From Kaistia terrae (GTDB lineage Bacteria; Pseudomonadota; Alphaproteobacteria; Rhizobiales; Kaistiaceae): a stretch of DNA of 64,000 bases. Below the pieces are notes generated by a model. The model did no database searches, was not told the DNA's origin, and saw nothing but the letters and a program-made list of their open reading frames with translations. The DNA is taken from assembly GCF_026344005.1 (NCBI RefSeq), contig NZ_JAPKNH010000002.1, positions 248,001-312,000 on the forward strand, written 5' to 3'. Of this stretch, positions 23,607-37,942 are shown in pieces. Each line of letters starts with the position of its first letter. Within the stretch, counting starts at the first letter, position 1. The position numbers and the translations under genes were made by a program.

Positions 23607-24785
23607 TTACGCGCTGCGACGGAGCAGACTGGCATAGATCTCGTCATCACCGCAAAGGCCGGCAAGTCGGCCCGCCTGGTCGACGAAGATGATCGGATGG
23701 TCCGACTGTCGCTTCAGGGCGATGGCCACATTGAGCTTCAGATCGACCGGCGCGATGATGATATCGCAGGGTGTATCGAAAGCGGCCGCATTGCCGTTGA
23801 CCCGGCCCAGCTTGCCTTCGCGGCCATTCACATCGACGCTGATCGGGCAATCGCCCGCATCGACGCGCATCCGCACCAGGCCATCACGATCGAGCAGCAC
23901 CGTGCCGTCGTCACGTCGCACCGAGCACGCCGGCGTCATCACCGAACCGCCGCGAAGCACGTTCAACGGGTTGGTATGCTTGACGAATTCGGCGACATAA
24001 GGCGTAGCTGGACGGAGCAATATGTCTTCCGCCGTGCCGGCCTGGACGATGCGGCCGCCCTCCATGATGGCGATCTTGTTGCCGATCTTCATCGCTTCGT
24101 CGAGGTCATGGCTGACGAACACGATGGTCTTCTGGATCCGGCTCTGCAGGCTCAGCAACTCGTCCTGCATCTTGTCGCGGATCAGTGGATCGAGCGCCGA
24201 AAAAGGCTCATCCATCAAGAGGATATCGGCATCGGTCGCAAAAGCGCGGGCCAGTCCGACCCGCTGCTGCATTCCTCCAGAAAGCTCATGCACATGCTTG
24301 TCGGCCCATTGCGTCAGGCCGACCATGGCCAGCTTCTCGTCGACGATGCGCTTGCGCTCGTTCTTCGGAATGCCGCGTATTTCCAGGCCGAAACCGACAT
24401 TATCGCGCACCGAGCGCCAGGGCAGCAGGCCGAATTGCTGGAACACCATGGAGACGGTGCGCATGCGGATCTCGCGCAGCGTGGCATCGCTACAGGTTGC
24501 GACATCGACCGCCGCGCCGTCATGCGAGACCAAGACGCTGCCCCGCGCCACTGGGTTGAGGCCGTTGACCGCGCGCAGAACCGTGGATTTCCCGGAACCG
24601 GAAAGGCCCATCAGAACGCAGATCTCGCCACGTTCGACCTGGAGGTCGATACCGGCTGCACCCAGAATCGCGCCGGTTTCCGCCAAAATTTCTTCGCGGG
24701 TCGCCTGGCGATCCATCAGCGCCAGCGCATCCTTCTGACGGTTGCCGAAGACGATATCGACATTGCGAAGCTCGATCGCTGACAT
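23607..24785 (-). CDS. choV: Choline ABC transporter ATP-binding protein
   Basis: A 392-residue ATPase of the ProV/OpuAA group. Motifs: Walker A GLSGSGKST, Q-loop VFQQFGLLPWRSV, signature LSGGMQQRVGLARAFA, Walker B LMDEPFSALDP, and the switch His in VFVSHDLDEA. The long insert before Walker A with MDRQATREEILAETG and the C-terminal region after residue 290 match ChoV. The ATG at 24785 is two bases after the choW stop; an open frame that continues to 25556 only reads through choW in the wrong frame. It powers choline uptake for use as a carbon and nitrogen source and as a precursor of glycine betaine. Confidence 0.92.
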   Translation of the reverse strand: MSAIELRNVDIVFGNRQKDALALMDRQATREEILAETGAILGAAGIDLQVERGEICVLMGLSGSGKSTVLRAVNGLNPVARGSVLVSHDGAAVDVATCSDATLREIRMRTVSMVFQQFGLLPWRSVRDNVGFGLEIRGIPKNERKRIVDEKLAMVGLTQWADKHVHELSGGMQQRVGLARAFATDADILLMDEPFSALDPLIRDKMQDELLSLQSRIQKTIVFVSHDLDEAMKIGNKIAIMEGGRIVQAGTAEDILLRPATPYVAEFVKHTNPLNVLRGGSVMTPACSVRRDDGTVLLDRDGLVRMRVDAGDCPISVDVNGREGKLGRVNGNAAAFDTPCDIIIAPVDLKLNVAIALKRQSDHPIIFVDQAGRLAGLCGDDEIYASLLRRSA

Positions 24786-24787
24786 GG

Positions 24788-25639
24788 TCACTTCCCCGCC
24801 GTCTTGCGTTCGGGCCGCTTGCAGACCCGGTCGAGCACGATGGCGAGCAGGACGATGGCGGCCCCTGCCTCGAAGCCCATGCCGATATTGACGGAATTGA
24901 GCGCGCGAACCACCGGCTTGCCCAGTCCGTCGGCGCCGACGAGGGCGGCTATCACCACCATGGAAAGCGACAGCATGATGCACTGCGTCACGCCGGCCAT
25001 GATGGTCGGCATCGCATGGGGTAGCTCCACCTTGTAGAGCAACTGCCGCTTCGTGGCGCCGAACGCCTTGCCAGCTTCCTGCAATTGCGTCGGGACCGTC
25101 GAAATGCCGAGATGGGTCAACCGGATAGGGGCGGGAAGGGCGAAGATCACGGTCGAGATCAGACCCGGCACGGCGCCGAGGCCAAACAGCACCAACGTCG
25201 GGATCAGGTAGACGAAGGTCGGGATCGTCTGCATCAGGTCGAGGATCGGGCGGATGGCGGCATAGAGCCAGGGTCGGTGCGCAGCGGCGATGCCGATCGG
25301 CACGCCGATGACGACGCAGACGACCGTTGCCCAGATCACCAGCGACAGTGTCTCCAGTGTTGGCTGCCAGTAACCGAGATTGATCACCAGCAGGAAGGCA
25401 ATGACGGTGAAGGCGGTGAGCTTGATCGAGCGGTGCAGCGCGTAGGCGATCGCCCCGAAGATGGCGATCAGCAGCAGCGGTGGCGTCATCAGCAGGAGGC
25501 TGGTCAATCCATCGATCAGTGAGCCGAGGACCAGCGAGATGAAGTCGAAGAGCCACTGGGCATGCAGGTTCAGGAAGTCGACGAAGGACTTGATCCAGGC
25601 GCCCAACGGGATCTTGTGCTCGGTCAGCCAGCTATACAT
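24788..25639 (-). CDS. choW: Choline ABC transporter permease
   Basis: A 283-residue inner-membrane permease of the ProW/OpuAB type with about six membrane segments. The start MYSWLTEHKIPLGAWIKSFV and the ATPase-contact loop QLQEAGKAFGATKRQLLYKV fit ChoW. The ATG at 25639 follows GGAGA; a GTG at 25687 would add 16 residues and is less likely. The gene follows choX after a 116-base space that holds a strong hairpin, and precedes choV. It forms the choline channel as a homodimer. Confidence 0.92.
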   Translation of the reverse strand: MYSWLTEHKIPLGAWIKSFVDFLNLHAQWLFDFISLVLGSLIDGLTSLLLMTPPLLLIAIFGAIAYALHRSIKLTAFTVIAFLLVINLGYWQPTLETLSLVIWATVVCVVIGVPIGIAAAHRPWLYAAIRPILDLMQTIPTFVYLIPTLVLFGLGAVPGLISTVIFALPAPIRLTHLGISTVPTQLQEAGKAFGATKRQLLYKVELPHAMPTIMAGVTQCIMLSLSMVVIAALVGADGLGKPVVRALNSVNIGMGFEAGAAIVLLAIVLDRVCKRPERKTAGK

Positions 25640-25711
25640 GCGAAAAAGGTCTCCGGTGGCCGTTAAGGCCGTCCGGGCGAACGACACGTCGCCCGGTCAT
25701 TTGGCATTCGA

Positions 25712-25755: not shown

Positions 25756-26706
25756 TCAGAGGCCGAGGCTCGCCTTCACGGCCGGCAGGCCGGGCTGGCC
25801 GTCGATCGTGTTGACGCCGGCAAGCCAGCCGTCGAGAGCGGCCGGATTGGCCTTGAGCCAGGCGGTCGCCGCCGCGTCGGGATCCAAACCGCCATCAAGG
25901 ATGCTGGCCATGACCTGGCCTTCGATCGGCAAGGTGAACTTCATGTTCTTGATGAGCGCGCCGACATTCGGGCACTCCTCGATGAAGCCCTTGCGAACGC
26001 TGGTCGAAACCGTCGCGCCGCCAAAGTTCGGGCCGAACACGTCATCGCCGCCATCGAGATACTGCATCGGGAACTTCTCGTTCATCGGATGTGGCGCCCA
26101 GCCGAGGAAGACGATCGCGTCCTTCTTGCGTCCGGCGCGGTCGACCTGGGACAGCATGCCCTGTTCGCTCGATTCCACCAGCTCGAACGAGCCGAGGCCG
26201 AACTTGTCGGCCTTGATCATGTCGAGGATCAGCCGATTGCCGTCATTGCCGGGCTCGATGCCATAGAGCTTGCCGCCCAGCTTATCCTTGAACTTGGCGA
26301 TATCAGCGAAGGTCTTCAGGCCTTCGTCGAAGAGATAGCTCGGGACCGCCAGCGTATACTTGGCGCCTTCGAGATTGACGCCGACGACTTCGACTGAACC
26401 GTCATCCTGATAGGGCTTCAAATCGGCGGCCATCGAGGGCAGCCAGTTGCCGAGGAAGACGTCGATGTCCTTGTTCTTCAGCGAGGCGTAGGTGACCGGC
26501 ACCGACAGCACCTGCAGCTTGGGCGTATAGCCAAGGCCGGTGAGGATGCGCGAGGTCAGCCCCGTCGTCGCCGAGATATCGGTCCAGCCGACATCGGAGA
26601 AACGCACGGTCTTGCAGGCGGCGGGTTCTGCCGCCGAAGCCGTTCCTGCGAGCGCCAGCAGGCAGGTCATGGCAACCATCGACTTGGAAATTACCGAATT
26701 CAGCAT
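25756..26706 (-). CDS. choX: Choline-binding periplasmic protein
   Basis: A 316-residue ligand-binding protein of the OpuAC group with a Sec signal peptide ending near ASAAEP. The mature part has aromatic residues in the places expected for the choline-binding box: Trp in DVGWTDI, Trp in LGNWLPS and Trp in LGWAPHPMN. These fit ChoX, which binds choline with high affinity and betaine weakly, as known for Sinorhizobium. It is the first gene of choXWV and is transcribed away from the betI-betB fusion gene. The shared 313-base space carries BetI-operator-like palindromes, so choline probably induces both units. Confidence 0.92.
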   Translation of the reverse strand: MLNSVISKSMVAMTCLLALAGTASAAEPAACKTVRFSDVGWTDISATTGLTSRILTGLGYTPKLQVLSVPVTYASLKNKDIDVFLGNWLPSMAADLKPYQDDGSVEVVGVNLEGAKYTLAVPSYLFDEGLKTFADIAKFKDKLGGKLYGIEPGNDGNRLILDMIKADKFGLGSFELVESSEQGMLSQVDRAGRKKDAIVFLGWAPHPMNEKFPMQYLDGGDDVFGPNFGGATVSTSVRKGFIEECPNVGALIKNMKFTLPIEGQVMASILDGGLDPDAAATAWLKANPAALDGWLAGVNTIDGQPGLPAVKASLGL

Positions 26707-26885
26707 TCTTTACTTCTCCCAGCATGCGGCCCCGTCAGGCGACCGCCGGATGGGCAAGCATAGCGCAGCAAGCGACGCGATGAAGCGTCGTAGCGACGGA
26801 TCGAATGATAGTCTCCGTGGCGATGTGTCCACCACTCTTTGTTTTGTGTCAAACCGAGGCGCACGCATTTGTTGTGCCTGGTTCG

Positions 26886-26910
26886 TTGAATGGTCATTCA
26901 ATTCTATAAT
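26886..26910 (+). promoter_or_regulatory. BetI-like operator with overlapping -10 box
   Basis: A perfect inverted repeat TTGAATG-GT-CATTCAA at 26886-26901 is followed by a consensus -10 hexamer TATAAT at 26905-26910. The layout suggests a regulated promoter for the betI-betB gene with a leader of about 100 bases. A good -35 box was not found at the usual spacing. Confidence 0.5.
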
Positions 26911-26994
26911 TCCGCAGTTTTATGCCATTTAAATGACGAAATTTTCTTTCGAATCCGAATTTCGATGTCAGTTCGGGTGATGGTGGTCGGTGCT

Positions 26995-27012
26995 TTGATT
27001 GTGCGTTCAATC
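26995..27012. promoter_or_regulatory. BetI-operator-like palindrome next to the fusion gene start
   Basis: TTGATTGTGCGTTCAATC contains the inverted pair GATTG and CAATC and resembles the TTGATTGGACGTTCAAT pattern that I recall for BetI sites. It lies seven bases before the ATG at 27020, where a bound repressor would block expression. The rest of the 313-base spacer (26707-27019) also has a 10-base palindrome CATTTAAATG at 26926-26935 and no gene. Confidence 0.5.
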
Positions 27013-27019
27013 GCGATAA

Positions 27020-29155
27020 ATGACGGTGGACCGTTCGAAGACGGAAAGGGATGCATTGGCCGAGACAAGTTCTGCCCGGATCGAAGCTGAGGATGTCCGC
27101 CGCCGCCAGTTGATCGAGGCAACGATCGAATCATTGGCCGAGGTCGGTTTCGCCGCCTGCACGCTGATGGACATCGGCCGTCGGGCGGGTGTCTCGCCGG
27201 GTCTGGTCGCGCATTATTTCGGCGACAAGGAAGGGCTGCTTGAGGCCACTTTGCGCCATTTGGCCGGCCGCCTCTCAAGGCTTGTCTCGGTGCGGCTCGC
27301 ACAGGCGCGGACGCCGCGCGAGCGCATACAGGCCGTGATCGACGCCAATCTCGCGCCGGAGGAGTTTGACCGGCGGACAGCCAGCGTCTGGCTCGCCTTT
27401 TGGGGTCAGGTCATTCATTCGGCCCGCTTCAAGCGCGTCCAGAACGTCTATCAGCGCCGGATGCTGTCCAATCTGCGCCACGGCTTGAAGCAGATCGTGC
27501 CGGCGCGGGAGGCGCAATCGATCGCCGTCGCGATTGCCGCGGTGATCGACGGGCTCTGGCTGCGCGAGACGCTGGCGGCGGAAGGCGAGCCGGAAAGCGC
27601 CGGAGCGCGCGCCATCGCCACTGCCTTCGTCGATGCGCAACTGGCAGCCGTCCGTTCGCGCGCACCCGCTCTTGAACCGGTCATCCAGACCGCTCGCAAC
27701 GGCCTCCTTCGCAATCATATCGGCGGTCGTGCCCATCCGGCCTTGGAGGGGCGCAGCTTCCCCTCGATCAATCCGGCGACGGGCGAAACACTGGCCGAGA
27801 TCGAGATTTCAGGTCCGGCGGAAATCGAGGCGGCGGTCGCCAGCGCGAAAATCGGCCAAAAGATCTGGGCGGCAATGACCGGCAGCCAGCGCGGCCAGAT
27901 CCTGAAGCGCGTCGCCAGCCTGCTGCGCGAGCGCAACGACGAACTGGCGCGGCTGGAGACGCTCGATACCGGCAAGCCGATCCAGGAAACCTCCGTCGTT
28001 GATGTTGTCTCCGGTGCGGATTGCATCGACTATTTCGCGGGGCTGGCGGGTGCCATCACCGGCGAGCATGTCGATCTCGGACCGGAGGCCTTTGGCTATA
28101 CCCGGCGCGAACCGCTTGGTGTCGTTGCCGGCATCGGTGCCTGGAACTATCCGCTGCAAATCGCCTGCTGGAAAGCGGCCCCTGCACTGGCCGCCGGCAA
28201 CGCCATGATTTTCAAGCCGGCCGAACTGACGCCGCTGACGGCGATCAAGCTGGCGGAGATCATGACGGAGGCCGGTGTCCCGGACGGTGTCTTCAACGTC
28301 GTGCAGGGCTTTGCCGAGACGGGGCGTCTGCTGACGCGCCATCCTGATATCGCCAAGATCTCGTTGACCGGCGAAGTCGGTACCGGGCGAAAGGTCATGG
28401 CGGACGCAGCGGAGACATTGAAGCCGGTGACGCTGGAACTTGGTGGCAAGTCGCCGCTACTCATCTTCGAAGATGCCAATCTCGATGATGCGGTGTCCGG
28501 CGCGCTGCTCGCCAATTTCTATTCCGCCGGTCAGGTCTGTTCGAACGGCACGCGTGTCTTCGTGCAGGAGAGCGTTCGCGAAGCGTTTCTCGAAAAGCTC
28601 GTCGCTCGGACCAACCGCATGGTTGTCGGCAATCCGCTCGACCCGAAAACCCAGATGGGTGCGCTGATCTCGGAAGCGCATCTGCAAAAGGTGCTCGGCT
28701 ATATCGAGCGCGGCAAGACGGAGGGGGCGAAGCTCCTGACTGGCGGTCACCGCGTCGTCGATGGCGCCTTGGCAAAGGGCGCCTTCGTCGCGCCGACGAT
28801 TTTTGACGGCTGTTCCGACGACATGGTGATCGTGCGCGAGGAAATATTTGGCCCGGTCATGGCCGTACTCTCGTTTGCGGACGAGGACGAAGGGGTTGCG
28901 CGGGCTAACGATACGCTGTTCGGCCTCGCTGCCGGGGTTTTCACGCGCGATCTGGCGCGTGGGCATCGTGTCATCGCCCGGCTTCAGGCCGGAACCTGCT
29001 GGATCAACCACTACAACGTCACGCCGATCGAGCTTCCCTTCGGCGGCACCAAGCAATCCGGCCTCGGCCGCGAAAACTCGAAGGCGGCGCTGGATCACTA
29101 CACCCAGTTGAAGAGCGTCTACGTCAATCTCGGATCTATCGACGCGCCCTATTAG
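27020..29155 (+). CDS. BetI-BetB fusion: TetR-type choline regulator joined to betaine aldehyde dehydrogenase
   Basis: One unbroken 711-residue frame holds two proteins normally encoded apart. Residues about 25-210 are BetI: helix-turn-helix around 40-70 ([20 protein letters not shown]), then the ligand domain with [13 protein letters not shown]. Residues about 236-711 are BetB, which oxidises betaine aldehyde to glycine betaine with NAD(P)+; the active-site Asn376 (GAWNYP), Glu473 (LELGGKSP) and Cys507 (GQVCSNG) are all kept. The joining segment of some 25 residues has no in-frame ATG or GTG and no ribosome site, so a separate BetB is unlikely. The ATG at 27020 is the longest start; a TTG at 27056 behind GGAAAGG is an alternative. 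Choline uptake genes are divergent and sarcosine oxidase genes converge on its 3' end. No choline dehydrogenase gene is nearby. Confidence 0.92.
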
Positions 29156-29727
29156 GTCTGCGCTCCGTCGAAATCCCGCGCCGCTTCCAGCAGGAAGCCG
29201 TGCACATAGGGGGCGAAGGAACGCCAGCATTCGACCCGGTATGTCGGCGCGTCATCCTCGCGGATCAGCACGATTTCCGCCTTGCCGAGCAGGGTGCGGG
29301 TTGCGAAGCCGGTCGGGAACGCCGCCGCTGCCAGATCCAGCGGGCAGCCGGCGTTGAGCACATCGGCAGCGTGGGCGCCGCGTACCGCGATGCCGACATT
29401 GCGATGACTGATCTCGACCAGCGCATGGAATCGCTCGCCGAACGCCTGTGCGATCTCGGCAGCGATCGCCTCGGCCTCTGCCGCGTCCCCGATCAGCAGC
29501 CATTCGTCCGGGCCGAGCCGGATCGACCGGCGCGGTCCGGACGAGGCGCTGTTGATGGCAAGATCGAGCGGAAACCCGGCCACAGCGCCCATCTCGGAAG
29601 CGAGCGCCGGTCTGAGCCGTAGCGCGAAACGGGCGGCGTCCGGCAATGGCGCGATCTCCGGTGTTCCTGCCGAGGCGGTCGCGGCAAGCGCAGTGGCGCG
29701 GGTGACCCTGTTGACGGTCTCAAGCAT
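29152..29727 (-). CDS. soxG: Sarcosine oxidase gamma subunit
   Basis: A 191-residue protein of the SoxG family, which resembles a GcvT/folate-binding fold. Typical segments are [12 protein letters not shown] and [14 protein letters not shown], followed by [15 protein letters not shown]. The ATG at 29727 overlaps soxA by eight bases and has GGGAG nine bases before it; the longer frame to 29748 is not needed. It is the last gene of soxBDAG and its stop overlaps the 3' end of the betI-betB fusion by four bases on the opposite strand. It is a structural subunit of the heterotetrameric oxidase that demethylates sarcosine to glycine. Confidence 0.9.
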
Positions 29728-32707
29728 GGACGCGTTCTCCCGCTGCATCGAAGAACGCCGGCGCGGTTACCGTCGCCTTGGTGAAGCTGCTCGGTGTCGT
29801 CACGAAGATCTCGCTGCCGATGCGCTCGCGGCCTCCCTCGACCAGCGCCAGCGCGATCGAACGGTCGCAGGCCGGGCTCCAGTAGCTCGACGTGACATGG
29901 CCAAGCGCATGGATCGGGATCGGCTGGTCGCGGTCGGCGACGATCTGCGCGCCCTCATCAAGGACCAGCGTCGGGTCGTCGGTCAGGATGCCGACCAGCT
30001 GCTTGCGGCCGGGTGCCTCCAGATCCGGCCGTGCCAGCGAGCGCTTGCCGACGAAATCCGGCTTGGCCCTGGCGATCATGCCACCCAGTCCGAGATCGTC
30101 CGGCGTGACGGTGCCGTCGGTTTCCTGGCCGATGATGACGAAGCCGCGCTCGGCGCGCAGAACGTGCATCGTCTCGGTGCCATAGGGCGTCAGCCCAAAC
30201 GCGCCGCCGCGTGCGAAAATCGCTTCCCAGACGGCGCGGCCATAATCGGCCGGCACATTGATTTCGAAGCCCAGTTCGCCGGTGAAGGAGACGCGGAACA
30301 GCCTTGTCGGCACGCCACAGATGAAGCCTGTTCGCACCGCCATATGCGGGAAGGCGTCATTGGCAAGGTCGATGCCGGTGACGAGCGGCGCGATCAGCTC
30401 GCGCGCCTTCGGCCCCTGCACGGCGATGACGGCGAATTGCTCGGTGGTCGAGGTCAGGAAGACGTTCAGTTCCGGCCATTCGGTCTGGAGGTAGTCCTCC
30501 ATATGGGCGAGCACGCGCGGCGCGCCGCCGGTCGTGGTGGTGACGTGGAAACGGTCGACTGCCAGCCGTGCGACGACGCCGTCATCGAGGATGTAGCCAT
30601 CCTCTTTCAGCATCAGCCCGTAGCGGCAGCGGCCGGGTTCGAGCTTCAGCCAGCCATTGACATAGATGCGGTTCATGAACTCCGCGGCGTCGGGACCGAC
30701 AATCTCGATCTTGCCGAGCGTGGTGGCGTCGAAGATGCCGACATGCTGGCGCACCGCCGCGCATTCGCGCGCCACCGCCTCATGCAGGTCTTCGTCGCCG
30801 CGCGGAAAATACCAGGCCCGTTTCCACAGCCCGACATCCTCGAAGCGCGCGCCCTGTTCTTCGGCCCAGCCATGGACCGGCGTCTTTCGCGCGGGGTCGA
30901 ACAGGGGGCCGCGCGATGGGCCGATCAGAGTGCCGAAGGTGACCGGGGTATAGGGCGGGCGGAACGTCGTCGTGCCGACCGCGGGCAGGGGCTTTTCCAG
31001 AATGCCGGCGACGAGGCCGAGCGCGTTCATGTTCGAGCTCTTGCCCTGGTCCGTCGCCATGCCGGTGGTGGTGTAGCGTTTGACGTGCTCGACGGATTCG
31101 AAACCTTCGCGGACGGCGAGGTGGATATCCTTCGCTGTGACGTCGTTCTGGAAATCGATGAACGCTTTGACGCGAGCCGGGTCGGCGTCGGTCGGCAGCA
31201 CGCGAACCGGAGAGAAGCCGGTGGGCGTCGGCGTCGCCGTGAAGGCGCGGCTGGCGTCGCCTCCCGCTGCGGCGCTGCCGGCGGCAAAGCCTTCGGAGAG
31301 GATCTCGCCGAGATCGTAGCGGCCGTTGGCAGCCCCAGCCGAACGCTGGGCCTGGACCGCTTGATCCGGCACGAAGGCATCCAGCGCCGGGTCGAAGCGC
31401 AGCTTGCCGCGCGATTGCGAGAACAGATGCACCGATGGAGTCCAGCCGCCCGACATGCCGACGCAATCGGCGGCGAGCGTTTTCCGCGTACCGATCTTCC
31501 CTGCCGGGGACAAAGGCGCGACGGCGAGGCCGGTGACGCGCCTGGTCCCCGCCGCGGCAAGGACGGTGTGGCCGGTCAGGACCGTGGCGCCCTTTGCCCG
31601 CAACGCGGCCAGCTCCGGTCCGCAATCGCCTTCGGGACGGACATCGACCAGCGTCACGTCGATACCGGCGGCGGCTGCGTCGAGCGCCGCCGCATAGGCC
31701 GAGGCACCATTGGTGACAAAGACGACCTTGCGGCCGGGGGCGACGGCATAGCGATTGACGAATACGCGCACACTTTCCGCCAGCAGGATGCCGGGGCGGT
31801 CATTGTCGGCGAAAACCAGCGGCCGTTCATGCGCGCCGGTCGCCAGCACGACCTCGCCGGCGCGGACCTGCCACAGCCTTTCACGCGGCAAATGCGCGGG
31901 GGCATTGTCGAGGTGGTCGGTGAGGCGCTCGGCAAGCGCGATGTGGTTGTGGTTGTAATAGCCGAAGGCCGTGCTGCGCGGCAGCAGCGTGACGTTGCCG
32001 CGCGACCGCAATTCGGCGAGCGCTTCCGCCACCCATGCCTGCGCCGGTTTCCCGTCGATGGCGGAGGTGAGGTCGTGCAGCAGCGTTCCGCCCATCTCGG
32101 CCTGTTCGTCGGCGAGGAAGACGCGCTTGCCCGTTTCCGAGCCCGCGAGCGCCGCGGCGAGGCCGGCCGGGCCGGCACCGACCACCAGCACGTCGCAATG
32201 CGCATGGCGGTTGGCGTAGCGGTCGGCATCCGGCGCGTCGGGCGCCCGGCCGAGGCCGGCGGCGGCCCGGATCTTCGGTTCATAAACGCTGTCCCAGAAC
32301 CGGCGCGGCCACATGAAGGTCTTGTAGTAGAAGCCGGCGACGAAGACGGGCGACAGCACATCGTTGATCGCGCCGATGTCGAATTCGAGCGAGGGCCAAT
32401 GGTTCTGCGAGTGGGTGACGAGCCCGTCGCGGGCTTCCGCTACCGTGGCGCGGTTGTTCGGATCGATCTTGCCGGGACCGCGATCGACCGAAAGCAGCGC
32501 GTTCGGTTCATCGGAGCCGTGGCTCAGGAAGCCGCGCGGCCGGTGATATTTGAACGAGCGGCCGACGAAATGGATGTCATGCGCGATCAGCAGCGAGGCG
32601 ACGGTATCGCCGGCAAAGCCCGCGAGCGTCCTGCCATTGAAGACGATCGAGACCGGCTTCGACCGGTCGACGCGGCCCCCCTTGGGCAAGCGGTTGCGGC
32701 CGGCCAT
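29720..32707 (-). CDS. soxA: Sarcosine oxidase alpha subunit
   Basis: A 995-residue subunit, normal for the heterotetrameric enzyme. It starts with a ferredoxin-like segment (FNGRTLAGFAGDTVASLL), then a dinucleotide-binding part with VVGAGPAGLAAALAGSETG near residue 175, which binds NAD+, and a C-terminal GcvT-like aminomethyltransferase part (from about 600; GRCRYGLMLKEDG, TGELGFEINVP) that passes the methyl carbon to tetrahydrofolate. Its ATG overlaps the soxD stop by one base and its stop region overlaps soxG. It acts in the cytoplasm to convert sarcosine to glycine with formation of methylene-tetrahydrofolate and peroxide. Confidence 0.95.
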   Translation of the reverse strand: MAGRNRLPKGGRVDRSKPVSIVFNGRTLAGFAGDTVASLLIAHDIHFVGRSFKYHRPRGFLSHGSDEPNALLSVDRGPGKIDPNNRATVAEARDGLVTHSQNHWPSLEFDIGAINDVLSPVFVAGFYYKTFMWPRRFWDSVYEPKIRAAAGLGRAPDAPDADRYANRHAHCDVLVVGAGPAGLAAALAGSETGKRVFLADEQAEMGGTLLHDLTSAIDGKPAQAWVAEALAELRSRGNVTLLPRSTAFGYYNHNHIALAERLTDHLDNAPAHLPRERLWQVRAGEVVLATGAHERPLVFADNDRPGILLAESVRVFVNRYAVAPGRKVVFVTNGASAYAAALDAAAAGIDVTLVDVRPEGDCGPELAALRAKGATVLTGHTVLAAAGTRRVTGLAVAPLSPAGKIGTRKTLAADCVGMSGGWTPSVHLFSQSRGKLRFDPALDAFVPDQAVQAQRSAGAANGRYDLGEILSEGFAAGSAAAGGDASRAFTATPTPTGFSPVRVLPTDADPARVKAFIDFQNDVTAKDIHLAVREGFESVEHVKRYTTTGMATDQGKSSNMNALGLVAGILEKPLPAVGTTTFRPPYTPVTFGTLIGPSRGPLFDPARKTPVHGWAEEQGARFEDVGLWKRAWYFPRGDEDLHEAVARECAAVRQHVGIFDATTLGKIEIVGPDAAEFMNRIYVNGWLKLEPGRCRYGLMLKEDGYILDDGVVARLAVDRFHVTTTTGGAPRVLAHMEDYLQTEWPELNVFLTSTTEQFAVIAVQGPKARELIAPLVTGIDLANDAFPHMAVRTGFICGVPTRLFRVSFTGELGFEINVPADYGRAVWEAIFARGGAFGLTPYGTETMHVLRAERGFVIIGQETDGTVTPDDLGLGGMIARAKPDFVGKRSLARPDLEAPGRKQLVGILTDDPTLVLDEGAQIVADRDQPIPIHALGHVTSSYWSPACDRSIALALVEGGRERIGSEIFVTTPSSFTKATVTAPAFFDAAGERVHA

Positions 32708-32991
32708 CAGGCGCGCCCCCCGCCGATCGGCTTTTCGCCCATCTTGTAGCTCTCCAGGATGCGGTCGCTCACCGTATCGCGCAGCGCATTGAACCAGCGC
32801 TGGCAGCCATGTGCATGGTTCCAGCGCTCGGCCATCAGGCCCTTCGGATTAGTCCGGTAGAACAGGAATTCGGCCCAGGCCTGATCGTCGATTGTCTGGG
32901 GATCGCTTGGACGGGCGATATGCGCCTCGCCGCCGCCGCGAAATTCGATTTCCGGCCGGTCGCCGCAATAGGGGCAGGGAATGAGCAGCAT
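32707..32991 (-). CDS. soxD: Sarcosine oxidase delta subunit
   Basis: A 94-residue small subunit. The zinc ligands of the family are visible: two Cys in IPCPYCGDRPE near the N-terminus and His and Cys in NHAHGCQRWFNALRDT. The sequence between them, including WAEFLFYRTNPKG, is highly typical of SoxD. It stands between soxB and soxA, with a one-base overlap on soxA. A 129-base palindromic repeat lies between soxB and this gene. Confidence 0.93.
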   Translation of the reverse strand: MLLIPCPYCGDRPEIEFRGGGEAHIARPSDPQTIDDQAWAEFLFYRTNPKGLMAERWNHAHGCQRWFNALRDTVSDRILESYKMGEKPIGGGRA

Positions 32992-33023
32992 CTTCGGGCC
33001 CCTCTTGAGGGTGAGAACTGACG

Positions 33024-33152
33024 CTTCACCTCTCCCTGAGGGAGAGGTCGGCTCGAAGAGCCGGGTGAGGGTTTAGGGAATTCTCCGGTGAGACCGTAAA
33101 CCCTCACCCGCCGCCCCCTGGGCGTCGACCTCTCCCTCAGGGAGAGGTGAAG
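33024..33152. repeat. Intergenic palindromic repeat, full copy 2
   Basis: A 129-base element almost identical in plan to 20759-20886, with the same ends. The inner stem here reads GGCTC-GAA-GAGCC, whereas copy 1 has GGAGC-GAA-GCTCC, so two pairs changed together. It interrupts the sox operon between soxB and soxD and would form a large hairpin in the mRNA. Confidence 0.9.
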
Positions 33153-33185
33153 AATGGCGCTGATGTTTCAAAGCCTGCATCCTGC

Positions 33186-34439
33186 TCAATGCGCGACGGC
33201 GGCGGCGGCCGCTTCGTCGATCAGCCGTCCGGTGCGGAAGCGATCGAGGGTGAAGGGGGCGTTGATCGGATGCGGCTCGCCCTTGGCGATAGTCCAGGCG
33301 AAGACGTTGCCGGAGCCGGGCGTCGCCTTGAAGCCGCCGGTGCCCCAGCCGCAATTGACGTAGAGGCCGGGGATCGGCGTCTTGCCGATGATCGGCGAAC
33401 GGTCGGGCGTCACGTCGACGATGCCGCCCCAGCTCCTGAGCATCCGCATCCGCGAGAATTGCGGGAACAGTTCGCAGATCGCGTCCAGCGTATGGATCGG
33501 CACATGCAGGCCGCCCTGCTGGCTGTAGGAGATGTACTGGTCGGTGCCGGCGCCGATCACCAACTCGCCCTTGTCGGATTGCGAGATATAGGCGTGAACG
33601 GCGTTCGACATCACCACGCAGGGGAAGACCGGCTTGACCGGCTCGGACACCAGCGCCTGCAACGGGAAGCTTTCGAGCGGCATGCGCAGCCCGGCGCGCG
33701 CCATCACCACGCTGGTATGCCCGGCGGCGACGACGCCGACGCGCCTGGTGGCGATGTAACCCTTGGACGTTTCGACGCCTTCGATCGCGCCGCCGGCATC
33801 GCGGCGGAAGCCGGTGACCTCGCAATTCTGCAGGATGTCGACGCCCATAGCATCGGCGCCGCGTGCAAAACCCCAGGCGACCGCATCATGCCGCGCCACG
33901 CCGCCGCGCCGTTGCAGGGCGGCGCCGACGATCGGATAGCGCAGGTCGGGCGAGATGTTGAGCGGCGGGCAGAACTCCTTCGCCTCGTCCGGCGTCAGCC
34001 ATTCATTGTCGATGCCGGCCAGCCTGTTGGCGTAGACATGGCGCTTGAAGCTCTGCACGTCGTGGCTGTTATGCGCCAACATCAGCACGCCGCGCTGCGA
34101 ATACATGACGTTGTAGTTGAGCTCCTGCGACAGCCCGGCCCAGAGCTTCATCGCATGCTCGTAGATCGCCTCGCTCTCCTCATAGAGATAGTTGGAGCGG
34201 ATGATCGTCGTGTTGCGGCCGGTATTGCCGCCGCCAAGCCAGCCCTTTTCGATCACCGCAATGTTGGTGATGCCGTGTTCTTTGGCGAGGTAATAGGCGG
34301 TGGCGAGGCCATGGCCGCCGCCGCCGACGATGACCGCGTCATAGGCGGCCTTGGGCTCGGGAGTGCGCCATTGCCGCTCCCAGCCCTGATGGGCGTTGAA
34401 GGCTTCCGAGATCAGCGACTTCAGCGAGAAACGGCGCAT
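33186..34439 (-). CDS. soxB: Sarcosine oxidase beta subunit
   Basis: A 417-residue flavoprotein of the DAO/FAD-dependent oxidoreductase family. The FAD-binding motif [17 protein letters not shown] lies near residue 34, and ERG-like [20 protein letters not shown] follows. The C-terminal [16 protein letters not shown] region is also typical. The catalytic subunit holds noncovalent FAD and covalent FMN. The ATG at 34439 ([10 protein letters not shown]) gives the usual length; the frame open to 34697 has no family match. It is the first gene of soxBDAG. The 227 bases upstream hold no gene on the minus strand. Confidence 0.95.
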
Positions 34440-34666
34440 GGGGAACCCCGATCGATGTTCGAGCGTGGCACGAAGCGGCTGTCGTTTCCAGTTGCGAGTG
34501 ACATCGAGACACCCGGCTCTACAATGGCTCAGAAGTGGCCGGAAGACCGCCGGCGCATGCCCGCCGCGATGCGGAATGCACTCGACGCGTGCGTCCGCCA
34601 GCCTATATCGCAACGAGTTGCACATCCGTGCGTTGCAGCAAGAGAAACGGTCGAGAGGAGGACGAC

Positions 34667-35332
34667 ATGAGACACGCATCCCTGGCGCTTGCGGCATCGA
34701 TGGCGCTATTGGCCCTGGCTGGGACAGCCAAGGCGCAAGACGCCAGCAGCATGACCTTCTTCATCACGAGCGCCGGTGCCGGCAAAGGGGCCGATCTTGG
34801 CGGGCTGGCCGGAGCGGATGCGATCTGCCAGACGCTCGCCGGCAAGGTCGGCGCTGGCTCCAAGACCTGGCGCGCCTATCTCTCGACCCAGGAGGCCGAC
34901 GGCAAGCCGGCGGTCAACGCGCGCGACCGCATCGGCAAGGGGCCGTGGCAGAACGCCAAAGGTGTCGTCATCGCCAAGGACGTTGCGGACCTGCACGGCG
35001 CCAGCAACAATCTGAACAAGGAAACGGCGCTGACCGAGACAGGCGATCCGGTCAAGGGGCGCGGTGACACACCGAACACGCATGACATCCTGACCGGCAG
35101 CCAACCGGACGGAACGGCATTCCCCGCAGGGGACGACAAGACCTGCGGCAACTGGACAAAGGGCGGCACGGAGGGCGCGGCCATGCTCGGTCATCATGAC
35201 CGCGTTGGCCTCAATGACAGCGCGCCGATGAAGTCCTGGAATTCATCGCATCTGTCACGCGGCGGCTGTAATCCCGCGGCCCTTCAAAGCACGGGCGGCG
35301 CAGGGCTGTTCTATTGCTTCGCAGCCGACTGA
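34667..35332 (+). CDS. Secreted lectin-like protein of unknown function
   Basis: A 221-residue exported protein with a Sec signal peptide (about 1-24, ending near TAKAQD). The mature part has [19 protein letters not shown] and [12 protein letters not shown], the start of a C-type-lectin or endostatin-like fold seen in many rhizobial secreted proteins. Cysteines in ADAICQ, DDKTCGN, RGGCNP and LFYCFA could form two disulfides. The ATG at 34667 has a strong GAGAGGAGG site; the frame upstream to 34535 is not coding. It stands alone on the plus strand, divergent from the sox operon. Ligand unknown. Confidence 0.75.
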
Positions 35333-36696: not shown

Positions 36697-37782
36697 TCAG
36701 CGTTCGCCCAGATAGCGGAACAGCGTCTGCTTCCACCAGTCGCTATGGACGGTGTCGAGCAAGACGACGTCGATATCCTTGCGCAGCGGGCTGCCGAGCG
36801 GCAGGGCGATGCCGTAATTCTGCGGATCGAAAACGATGTCCAGGACTTCCATCGACGACGAGTAGTCCTGCAGGACGAACCAGGCGAGCAGCGGCTTGTC
36901 ATAGACAAAGGCGTCGATCTCGCCCGCCCTCAATGCCTTGAGCCCGTCCGGCGGCGTTGGGAAGCCGCGATACTTGATCCGCTGATCGGTAAGGTAGTCG
37001 ATCGTTGCCGAACCGGCGACGGCACCGACGCGGACCGAGGCGAGATCGTTGGCATTGTTGACCGCGCCCTGCAGCGCACGTGTCGTCAGCGCCGAGGTGA
37101 CGCCGGCGGTGAAGACGGCGATGGCGATGATCGAAACCGCCATCCAGAGGATGGCGAGCGTCCGTCCGGCAAACGTGATCGGCGAGCGGACGCCGGTGCT
37201 GGCCTGCGTCATCGCTTCGGCTGACCACCAGATCGAGGCGCCGATGCCGCGCGCGCCGCCGCCAAAGTGCTCGTTGCGCCGCCGTTCGAAGAACCAGATC
37301 ATCAGCCCCACCAGCAGGGCGAGCCCGACCAGAGCGCCGACGGCCTGTAAAAAGCCGAAGGACATCATGGTGTTGACGATCGCGCTCCAGCGCGCTGGAG
37401 CGCTCAGCGATACGGCGATGCCAAGCCCTGTGCGATAGAAGGGCTGGCTGAAATCGATGATTTCGGCGCGGGGGCCGGTAATGGTGAGGGCTGCGACCGC
37501 CGCATCGTATCGGCCGGCGGCCGTGCCTTCGATCAGCCCTTCGACGTTCGGTTCCTCAACCAGCCGGTATTTGAGGTTGAGCTTCTCGGCGATGCGTTGC
37601 CAGAGATCGATGCTGATACCGGTCCAGACGCCGTCCGTGCCCTTGATGGCGAAGGGCGCCGCCTGCTTGGTGCCGATGACGAGTTCGCGGGGTGCCGGCG
37701 TACTCTCCTGGGACGAAGCCGTCGCGACATGGCCAAGGGCCAGCAAAAGGCCTGTCAGCGCAATGAGAAAGGCCCGCAGCAT
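36697..37782 (-). CDS. Bacterial ionotropic glutamate receptor-like channel
   Basis: A 361-residue protein with the split-domain order of prokaryotic glutamate-gated channels. A signal peptide (1-24) is followed by a first binding lobe (about 30-135, with RELVIGTKQAAPFAIKG), a membrane helix (about 142-168, LVGLALLVGLMIWFFERR), a re-entrant pore-like segment (IWWSAEAMTQASTGV), a second helix (ILWMAVSIIAIAVFTAGV) and a second binding lobe to the end. GluR0-type proteins gate potassium with amino acids. Here the filter region lacks a clear TVGYG, so ion choice is uncertain. The ATG at 37782 gives a proper signal peptide. It could also be called a solute-binding-domain protein, but the inserted membrane unit argues for a channel. 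Confidence 0.75.
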   Translation of the reverse strand: MLRAFLIALTGLLLALGHVATASSQESTPAPRELVIGTKQAAPFAIKGTDGVWTGISIDLWQRIAEKLNLKYRLVEEPNVEGLIEGTAAGRYDAAVAALTITGPRAEIIDFSQPFYRTGLGIAVSLSAPARWSAIVNTMMSFGFLQAVGALVGLALLVGLMIWFFERRRNEHFGGGARGIGASIWWSAEAMTQASTGVRSPITFAGRTLAILWMAVSIIAIAVFTAGVTSALTTRALQGAVNNANDLASVRVGAVAGSATIDYLTDQRIKYRGFPTPPDGLKALRAGEIDAFVYDKPLLAWFVLQDYSSSMEVLDIVFDPQNYGIALPLGSPLRKDIDVVLLDTVHSDWWKQTLFRYLGER

Positions 37783-37942
37783 CGCCCTGTCACCATTTCC
37801 CGGTTCGGCACGTTCTGTTCTCGGCACGCGAAGGCATGGTCGACGTCCTGACCGGTTCTACTGGAAGCGGTCAGGATATCCAGTGCTTTGTTCAGGCGTT
37901 GGCTCTTGCTGGAAAGCGCCAACGCCTTTTCGTGACTTCGCC

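Follow-up and report, generated by a model that had tools for sequence, protein, structure and literature searches.

A BetI-betaine aldehyde dehydrogenase fusion in Kaistia terrae and its relatives, a probable autoregulated repressor-enzyme

Kaistia terrae carries a gene that joins the repressor BetI, in frame, to the betaine aldehyde dehydrogenase (BADH) BetB, and the same architecture recurs in many other genera. BetI belongs to the TetR family and is the choline-responsive repressor of the bet genes. We consider it likely that the fusion is an autoregulated repressor-enzyme, a single polypeptide with two semi-independent domains that controls choline import and itself. Computation established the open frame and the identities of its domains, the catalytic residues, the operator-like sites, the distribution of the fusion and the gene order in relatives, all described below.

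RESULTS

A single open frame encodes both BetI and BetB

The DNA analyzed, here called the window, is a 64,000-nucleotide stretch of the K. terrae genome assembly. The features of the locus are as follows.

23607 to 24755, minus strand: choV, choline ABC transporter ATP-binding protein (TIGR03415, 520.2 versus 483.75 bits)
24788 to 25687, minus strand: choW, choline ABC transporter permease (TIGR03416, 428.6 versus 363 bits)
25756 to 26706, minus strand: choX, choline ABC transporter substrate-binding protein, divergent (TIGR03414, 465 versus 379.05 bits)
26886 to 26901, unstranded: betI-box-like site TTGAATGGTCATTCAA, choX side (exact pattern match, perfect 7-base arms)
26995 to 27010, unstranded: betI-box-like site TTGATTGTGCGTTCAA, fusion side (exact pattern match, imperfect palindrome)
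27056 to 29155, plus strand: betI::betB fusion gene, probable TTG start, 699 amino acids (711 if the frame is read from the ATG at 27020)
27110 to 27247, plus strand: TetR_N helix-turn-helix domain, residues 31 to 76 of the 711-residue frame (Pfam)
27314 to 27643, plus strand: TetR_C_6, BetI-type C-terminal domain, residues 99 to 208 (Pfam); the BetI half passes TIGR03384
27662 to 27697, plus strand: linker, residues 215 to 226 (pLDDT below 50 in the model)
27752 to 29119, plus strand: aldehyde dehydrogenase (ALDH) domain, Aldedh, residues 245 to 700 (Pfam), holding N376, E473 and C507
29152 to 34586, minus strand: soxG-, soxA- and soxB-like sarcosine oxidase genes, convergent, overlapping the fusion stop

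Open reading frame analysis gave one open frame of 711 codons at 27020 to 29155 on the plus strand. A sequence-only reading had described this frame as a natural fusion of a full BetI regulator to a full ALDH, likely made as one polypeptide, and domain searches bear this out. Pfam scores were 49.4 bits for TetR_N (cut-off 24) and 93.8 bits for TetR_C_6 (cut-off 27). Taken alone, the BetI half exceeds the NCBIfam equivalog cut-offs of TIGR03384 (217.7 versus 201.3 bits) and NF001978 (211.6 versus 118), and the enzyme half exceeds those for BADH (TIGR01804, 694 versus 668.6; NF009725, 798 versus 593). Each half aligns almost end to end with its stand-alone family model. Asn376, Glu473 and Cys507, which the same reading had called intact, are present as N, E and C. 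The fusion is the sole locus in the 5.59-Mb assembly that matches both halves, the next-best being ALDHs with no more than 44% identity and weak TetR hits.

Although the 711-codon frame is open throughout, the protein is probably shorter than the 711 residues first proposed. The ATG at 27020 sits inside GATAAATGACG, which is also found upstream of the start in the congeners G003 and G012. In five congeners, the starts assigned by script as the nearest suitable ATG (n = 5) fall on the codon homologous to the window TTG at 27056 to 27058. Because these ATGs are preceded by GGAAG- or GGAGAGG-type stretches, and the window TTG by GGAAAGGG, translation probably begins at TTG 27056 rather than ATG 27020, giving 699 amino acids. 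Both halves of this version remain over the equivalog cut-offs.

The joining region was said to lack an ATG, a GTG or a ribosome site, and we found the same: no in-frame ATG or GTG lies between residues 201 and 254. The only start-type codon there is a TTG at residue 242 (27743 to 27745), preceded by GGTCGTGCCCATCCGGCC, in which no ribosome site is evident.

An AlphaFold2 model of the window protein (53 rows) had a mean pLDDT of 85.7 and a pTM of 0.66. It is helical up to residue 214, in keeping with a TetR-type domain, and ALDH-like in its second half; residues 1 to 3, the linker at 215 to 226, and residues 669 to 688 fall under pLDDT 50. The best 50 matches of the model to solved structures were all ALDHs, with BADHs first, and no solved sequence covered both halves among the 60 listed of 259 matched. 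Among fused loci, the linker varies in length and sequence. Since the BetI half passes its cut-off alone and the linker is modeled with low confidence, the BetI and ALDH domains may work independently.

The fusion is widespread and most likely arose once

The spread of the combined TetR_N and ALDH architecture had been suggested as a check, and the fusion proved widespread. Genome searches and plasmid matches yielded 22 loci with this architecture, the window locus included. Counting the window genome each time, one-frame fusions were confirmed in at least 17 of 397 genomes of the order (best 30 loci fetched), at least 3 of 385 of the class and at least 4 of 398 of the phylum (for both, matches at 1e-205 or better). 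Within the family sample, 9 of 28 genomes hold a complete fusion and one, G007, a fragment. A contig scan of the best 80 of 564 relatives, partly the same genomes as the 22-locus set, returned 76 one-frame fusions and 4 same-frame neighbors split by one stop, all four in Rhodospirillales; these relatives came from a fused query, and the ratio is not a natural frequency. Fused loci occur in Methylobrevis, Bosea, Ancylobacter, Azorhizobium, Faunimonas, Bauldia, Aureimonas, Rhodomicrobium and Acidisoma, as well as in Caulobacterales and Sphingomonadales. Sixteen are labeled Gammaproteobacteria, two of them Steroidobacteraceae, and all 16 are metagenome-assembled genomes whose taxonomy rests on their binning. 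Asn, Lys, Glu, Cys and Glu are kept at the five columns checked in 75 of the 76 fused loci.

A match was also found in 3467 plasmid records, three of which we opened: Komagataeibacter saccharivorans has the fusion, and Indioceanicola and Caballeronia have two genes. The K. saccharivorans gene is annotated betB with no betI listed beside it, and it is the sole fused annotation seen.

A missed stop or frameshift had been named as what would overturn the fusion. The same one-frame gene in independent assemblies of many genera rules out a sequencing or assembly error joining two genes, for which we see practically no chance.

In a 127-row tree built from both halves, a single branch (SH-aLRT 94) divides the 89 fused rows from the 38 separate ones. 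This tree used a simpler model and a quick search and has long branches, that of the Komagataeibacter row among them. Within the fused clade, whose 89 rows came mainly from the fused query, no split-back was observed. A 58-row tree had needed 2 changes and suggested two origins, a reading that the 127-row tree replaced with one origin. In unfused relatives such as G561, betI and betB share a frame and are split by one stop. From these patterns the fusion most likely arose once, when an in-frame betI-betB pair lost the betI stop. Fourteen loci with separate genes in one frame and a single stop between them were seen, and pairs of this kind are a ready starting point for fusion.

No described BetI-BetB fusion was known to the sequence-only reading. 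Nor did we find a description of a BetI-BetB or TetR-ALDH fusion in the matches listed from open-licence full-text papers, a scope that leaves most subscription journals and bioRxiv outside. The wide distribution, the missing betA described below and the probable start at 27056 are points that go beyond that reading and needed other genomes.

Two operator-like sites lie between choX and the fusion

The region from 26880 to 27015 had been put forward as an operator, and it contains two operator-like sites, at 26886 to 26901 and 26995 to 27010. Both TTGAATGGTCATTCAA and TTGATTGTGCGTTCAA match the pattern TTGAWYGNNCRTTCAA exactly, a pattern drawn up after the Kaistia sites were seen. With one mismatch allowed, the window has four matches, each of the two sites being counted once per strand, where dinucleotide shuffles predict 0.12. 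The 5.59-Mb assembly contains no third exact match, and with one mismatch it has 11, against 6 for the reversed control pattern.

We also scored 86 upstream regions of fused loci, leaving out nine loci from genomes already represented and three whose upstream sequence was too short. In 83 of the 86 there was a site agreeing with the pattern at 12 or more of 14 positions, and in 55 there were two or more. One or two boxes were observed in 79 of the 86 regions, against 0.003 boxes per region in single-base shuffles. A dinucleotide segment-swap control gave 1.45 boxes, near the observed value, and was disregarded because it hardly altered the sequences.

Aldehyde dehydrogenases can form tetramers, and we considered whether a tetrameric ALDH half might loop the DNA between the two sites. 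The boxes are 109 to 111 bp apart in six Kaistia and 41 to 234 bp apart elsewhere. No 10.4- to 10.6-bp phasing was found, and looping is unsupported: p was 0.40 to 0.49 for 41 two-box loci, a subset hand-picked to thin near-duplicates, and about 0.5 for 19 genus-level values. Contact between the boxes without helical phasing is possible and compatible with the spacing data.

The footprinted betI box of Ruegeria pomeroyi, ATTGACG*CGTCAAT in the available text of PMC12442346, resembles the half-site of the window boxes. By sequence resemblance, betI-box-like sites stand in the choline-gene promoters, as in BetI systems.

No betA equivalog is found beside the fusion or elsewhere in the window genome

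The usual order in the fused loci examined is divergent choXWV, fusion, betA. Among the 76 fused loci from the best 80 of 564 relatives, betA is directly downstream in 75, Kaistia granuli being the exception, and choX or choW is divergent upstream, within the available flank, in 50. BetA is the usual source of the BADH substrate, and in the window betA is not next to the fusion. A betA equivalog over the cut-off was found in 2 of 14 Kaistia genomes and not in the window genome, where relatives reach 647.8 bits against a cut-off of 732.1; one of these sub-threshold relatives could oxidize choline. Of the 14 genus genomes, six have choX, and it is these six that contain a complete fusion gene; in the other eight choX was not found at 1e-20.

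The sox-like genes of the window stand where betA stands in the congeners G002 and G010 and are not part of the fusion. The soxG-like gene (122.2 bits, under its cut-off of 143.95) is convergent, comes directly after the fusion and overlaps its stop. Sarcosine oxidase genes abut the fusion stop in the window and lie about 12 kb away in G002, where betA and the etf and flavoenzyme genes come between; their placement at 29152 to 34586 marks a sharp deletion boundary. Farther along, the protein encoded at 36700 to 37824 (minus strand) has SBP_bac_3 and Lig_chan (ligand-gated ion channel) Pfam domains, and counterparts stand beside the locus in five of five relatives. The same holds, in five of five Kaistia relatives, for the protein at 34535 to 35332 (plus strand), which has a sub-threshold DUF1554 match.

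Kaistia species differ stepwise in gene content around the fusion

Across the sample of 14 Kaistia genomes, three gene orders were found. G002 and G010 have choXWV, fusion, betA, further genes, sox and the gene with the sub-threshold DUF1554 match. The further genes, from a scan of G002, are electron transfer flavoprotein (ETF) subunits, an OYE-type flavoenzyme and a DUF3483 iron-sulfur protein, a set that presumably resembles dimethylglycine catabolism; G010 has close counterparts. The window species has choXWV, fusion, sox and the DUF1554-like gene, with no counterpart of the OYE-type gene in its genome at 1e-150. G003 (K. granuli), G012 and G011 have choXWV, fusion and the DUF1554-like gene; betA, the OYE-type gene and soxA were not found in these three at the thresholds used.

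In the last three species the halves of the fusion have diverged unequally. Identity to the window is 82 to 92% in the BetI half (residues 20 to 205) and 40 to 66% in the ALDH half (245 to 700). Nine betA-bearing fused genomes from outside Kaistia were compared pairwise, and in all 36 pairs the ALDH half was better conserved than the BetI half. Between the betA-bearing Kaistia G002 and G010, both halves are 98% identical. The catalytic Asn has become Ser and the Cys is lost in all three; the Glu is lost in G012 and G011 and kept in G003. The K. granuli enzyme half, with its Cys deleted, is under both BADH cut-offs, and its BetI half is still over the BetI cut-off. The AlphaFold2 model of this protein (39 rows, mean pLDDT 83.3) has more low-confidence loops than the window model and a similar run of secondary structure, which the homologue alignment would tend to yield anyway. 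A contig-end fragment in G007, judged by eye, also appears to have a dead ALDH half. In all four loci the ALDH half, though without catalytic residues, is still in frame; the BetI half is highly conserved in the first three, and the G007 contig ends inside this half.

The dead ALDH halves stay in frame to a C terminus that resembles that of the window. Gaps relative to the window are 6, 42, 9 and 33 bases in G003 and 69, 12 and 3 bases in G012, all seven multiples of three, and no base is out of register in either species. In G011, 56 of 1269 bases are out of register relative to the window and none relative to G012. Pairs that include a dead species have dN/dS values of 0.26 to 0.62 for the ALDH half and 0.06 to 0.18 for the BetI half; between the window and G002 the values are 0.062 and 0.053, respectively. 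A neutral simulation gave a mean of 1.3 to 2.3 stops per lineage in this GC-rich sequence, and because 36 to 84 of 300 runs, depending on distance, had no stop, the absence of stops alone is weak evidence; the in-frame gaps and dN/dS weigh more. The persistence of the dead enzyme half favors some noncatalytic role, with no positive sign from the unphased sites or from the linker, which is probably loose.

We asked whether residual constraint in the dead halves is limited to the oligomerization strands, and it is not consistently higher there: conserved sites are retained at 50 to 68% in what we take to be the oligomerization arm, 23 to 62% in the C-terminal strand and 38 to 91% in other ALDH parts. 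At sites conserved in 12 outgroup rows, the window ALDH half has 27 changes and each betA-bearing sister 21, and the BetI half has 4 versus 5. The trees place the window differently (the 58-row and 127-row trees disagree, and a third is unrooted), and betA may have been lost once or twice.

DISCUSSION

How the fusion may work

TetR-type repressors act as dimers, and the BetI half would be expected to form the usual dimer. It would bind the two sites in the choX-fusion intergenic region, repressing choXWV and its own gene, and choline binding in the BetI C-terminal domain would relieve that repression, while the C-terminal half would act as a BADH. From what is known of the families we infer the choline response, the repression of both promoters and the enzyme activity in the window species. 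Under autoregulation, fusion would fix the dose of repressor to enzyme at 1:1. Without betA, the enzyme half of the window species would take aldehyde from another source or would have lost its supply, and the repressor half would most likely be kept to control choline import.

Several other readings bear on this proposal. That two co-transcribed genes were simply joined when the betI stop was lost, each domain working as before with nothing gained, is a real possibility, if somewhat short of probable. The many relatives with both genes in one frame and a single stop between them suit it, as do the otherwise canonical gene order and the nearly end-to-end fit of each half to its own model, but occasional splitting would then be expected, and the 89 fused rows, gathered with a fused query, contain none. 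A dispensable ALDH half would also not be expected to survive once dead, as it does in Kaistia, although the stop-codon test of this is weak. It is conceivable but doubtful that the enzyme half of the window lineage is itself on the way to decay, with betA gone and its congeners showing the next stage; the lack of a betA equivalog in the window genome, the dead ALDH halves of G003, G012, G011 and, by eye, G007, and the 27 changes against 21 (BetI, 4 against 5) point that way. The intact catalytic residues and the ALDH-half dN/dS of 0.062 against G002 speak against it, and 27 versus 21 is a small difference. Additional production of free BADH, through internal initiation or proteolysis, seems improbable. 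Linkers contain an in-frame ATG, GTG or TTG in 61 of 76 fused loci, and an ATG shortly precedes the first BetB strand in G071 (there behind AAAGGA), G110, G144, G102 and G020; but the other 15 loci have none of the three codons, their absence was noted in G002, G010, G011, G016, G755, G189 and G1022, and the window linker offers its single TTG. These five ATGs lie at about the expected start of a stand-alone BetB and look like relict betB starts, and in relatives that keep one, a second, shorter product from internal initiation is possible.

A closer coupling of the halves, the PutA-like logic suggested by the sequence-only reading, strikes us as unlikely. Binding of the BetI half to DNA would then depend on NAD, on betaine aldehyde or on how the ALDH half oligomerizes, and the enzyme itself would report substrate. 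The lack of split-back in the fused clade would fit such a coupling, as would an ALDH half that lost Asn and Cys in three betA-less Kaistia and yet stayed in frame, with every G003 and G012 gap a multiple of three and dN/dS below 1. A low-confidence linker of variable length and sequence suits independent domains better, however, the box spacing in the hand-picked loci lacks helical phasing (p about 0.4 to 0.5), and G011 has its 56 of 1269 bases out of register with the window. We give a similarly small chance to a related proposal, that the ALDH half is an obligate, partly noncatalytic part of the repressor and determines how the BetI half oligomerizes or responds to ligand. If that were true, Kaistia without betA could lose the catalytic residues but not the ALDH domain, the fusion would represent, after PutA, another independent origin of a DNA-binding dehydrogenase, here on a TetR scaffold, and the natural dead-enzyme variants would separate sensing from catalysis. 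The reading we prefer remains the autoregulated repressor-enzyme with semi-independent domains.

Comparison with known systems and significance

Like BetI, the fusion has a TetR_N domain and a BetI-type C-terminal domain, exceeds the TIGR03384 cut-off and has betI-box-like sites beside choline transport and bet genes; unlike BetI, whose models have 189 and 197 positions, it continues into an enzyme of about 480 amino acids. It shares with BetB the TIGR01804 and NF009725 matches, the catalytic Asn, Glu and Cys, and BADHs such as 6wsa, 2wme and 3r31 as nearest solved structures, and differs in the DNA-binding-type repressor at its N terminus.

To our knowledge, few repressors are fused to an enzyme from the same pathway, and PutA is the standard case. 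The DNA-binding domain of PutA is a ribbon-helix-helix, whereas that of the fusion is a TetR-type helix-turn-helix. The pathways differ as well, and switching by substrate or cofactor is just a possibility for the fusion. Pfam gives TetR_N, TetR_C_6 and Aldedh alone, with no proline dehydrogenase domain. The likeness lies in the architecture: according to the available text of PMC9132996, PutA, too, is a single polypeptide in which a repressor domain that binds DNA is joined to an aldehyde dehydrogenase from its own pathway.

In R. pomeroyi, another alphaproteobacterium, choline genes are under BetI control with two BetI regulators, a divergent transporter and palindromic boxes, but the betI genes are separate, as far as the available text of PMC12442346 describes. 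In its main text, the word "fused" is absent and the two uses of "fusion" refer to a mutagenesis method.

The fusion draws on the large TetR class and is widespread. It may have escaped notice, as annotation can hide the BetI half, for example in the betB of K. saccharivorans. Kaistia offers a series in which the pathway genes are complete, betA is lost with the enzyme intact, or betA is lost with the enzyme dead but still attached, and this series makes the question of why a switch should be fused to an enzyme testable with natural proteins.
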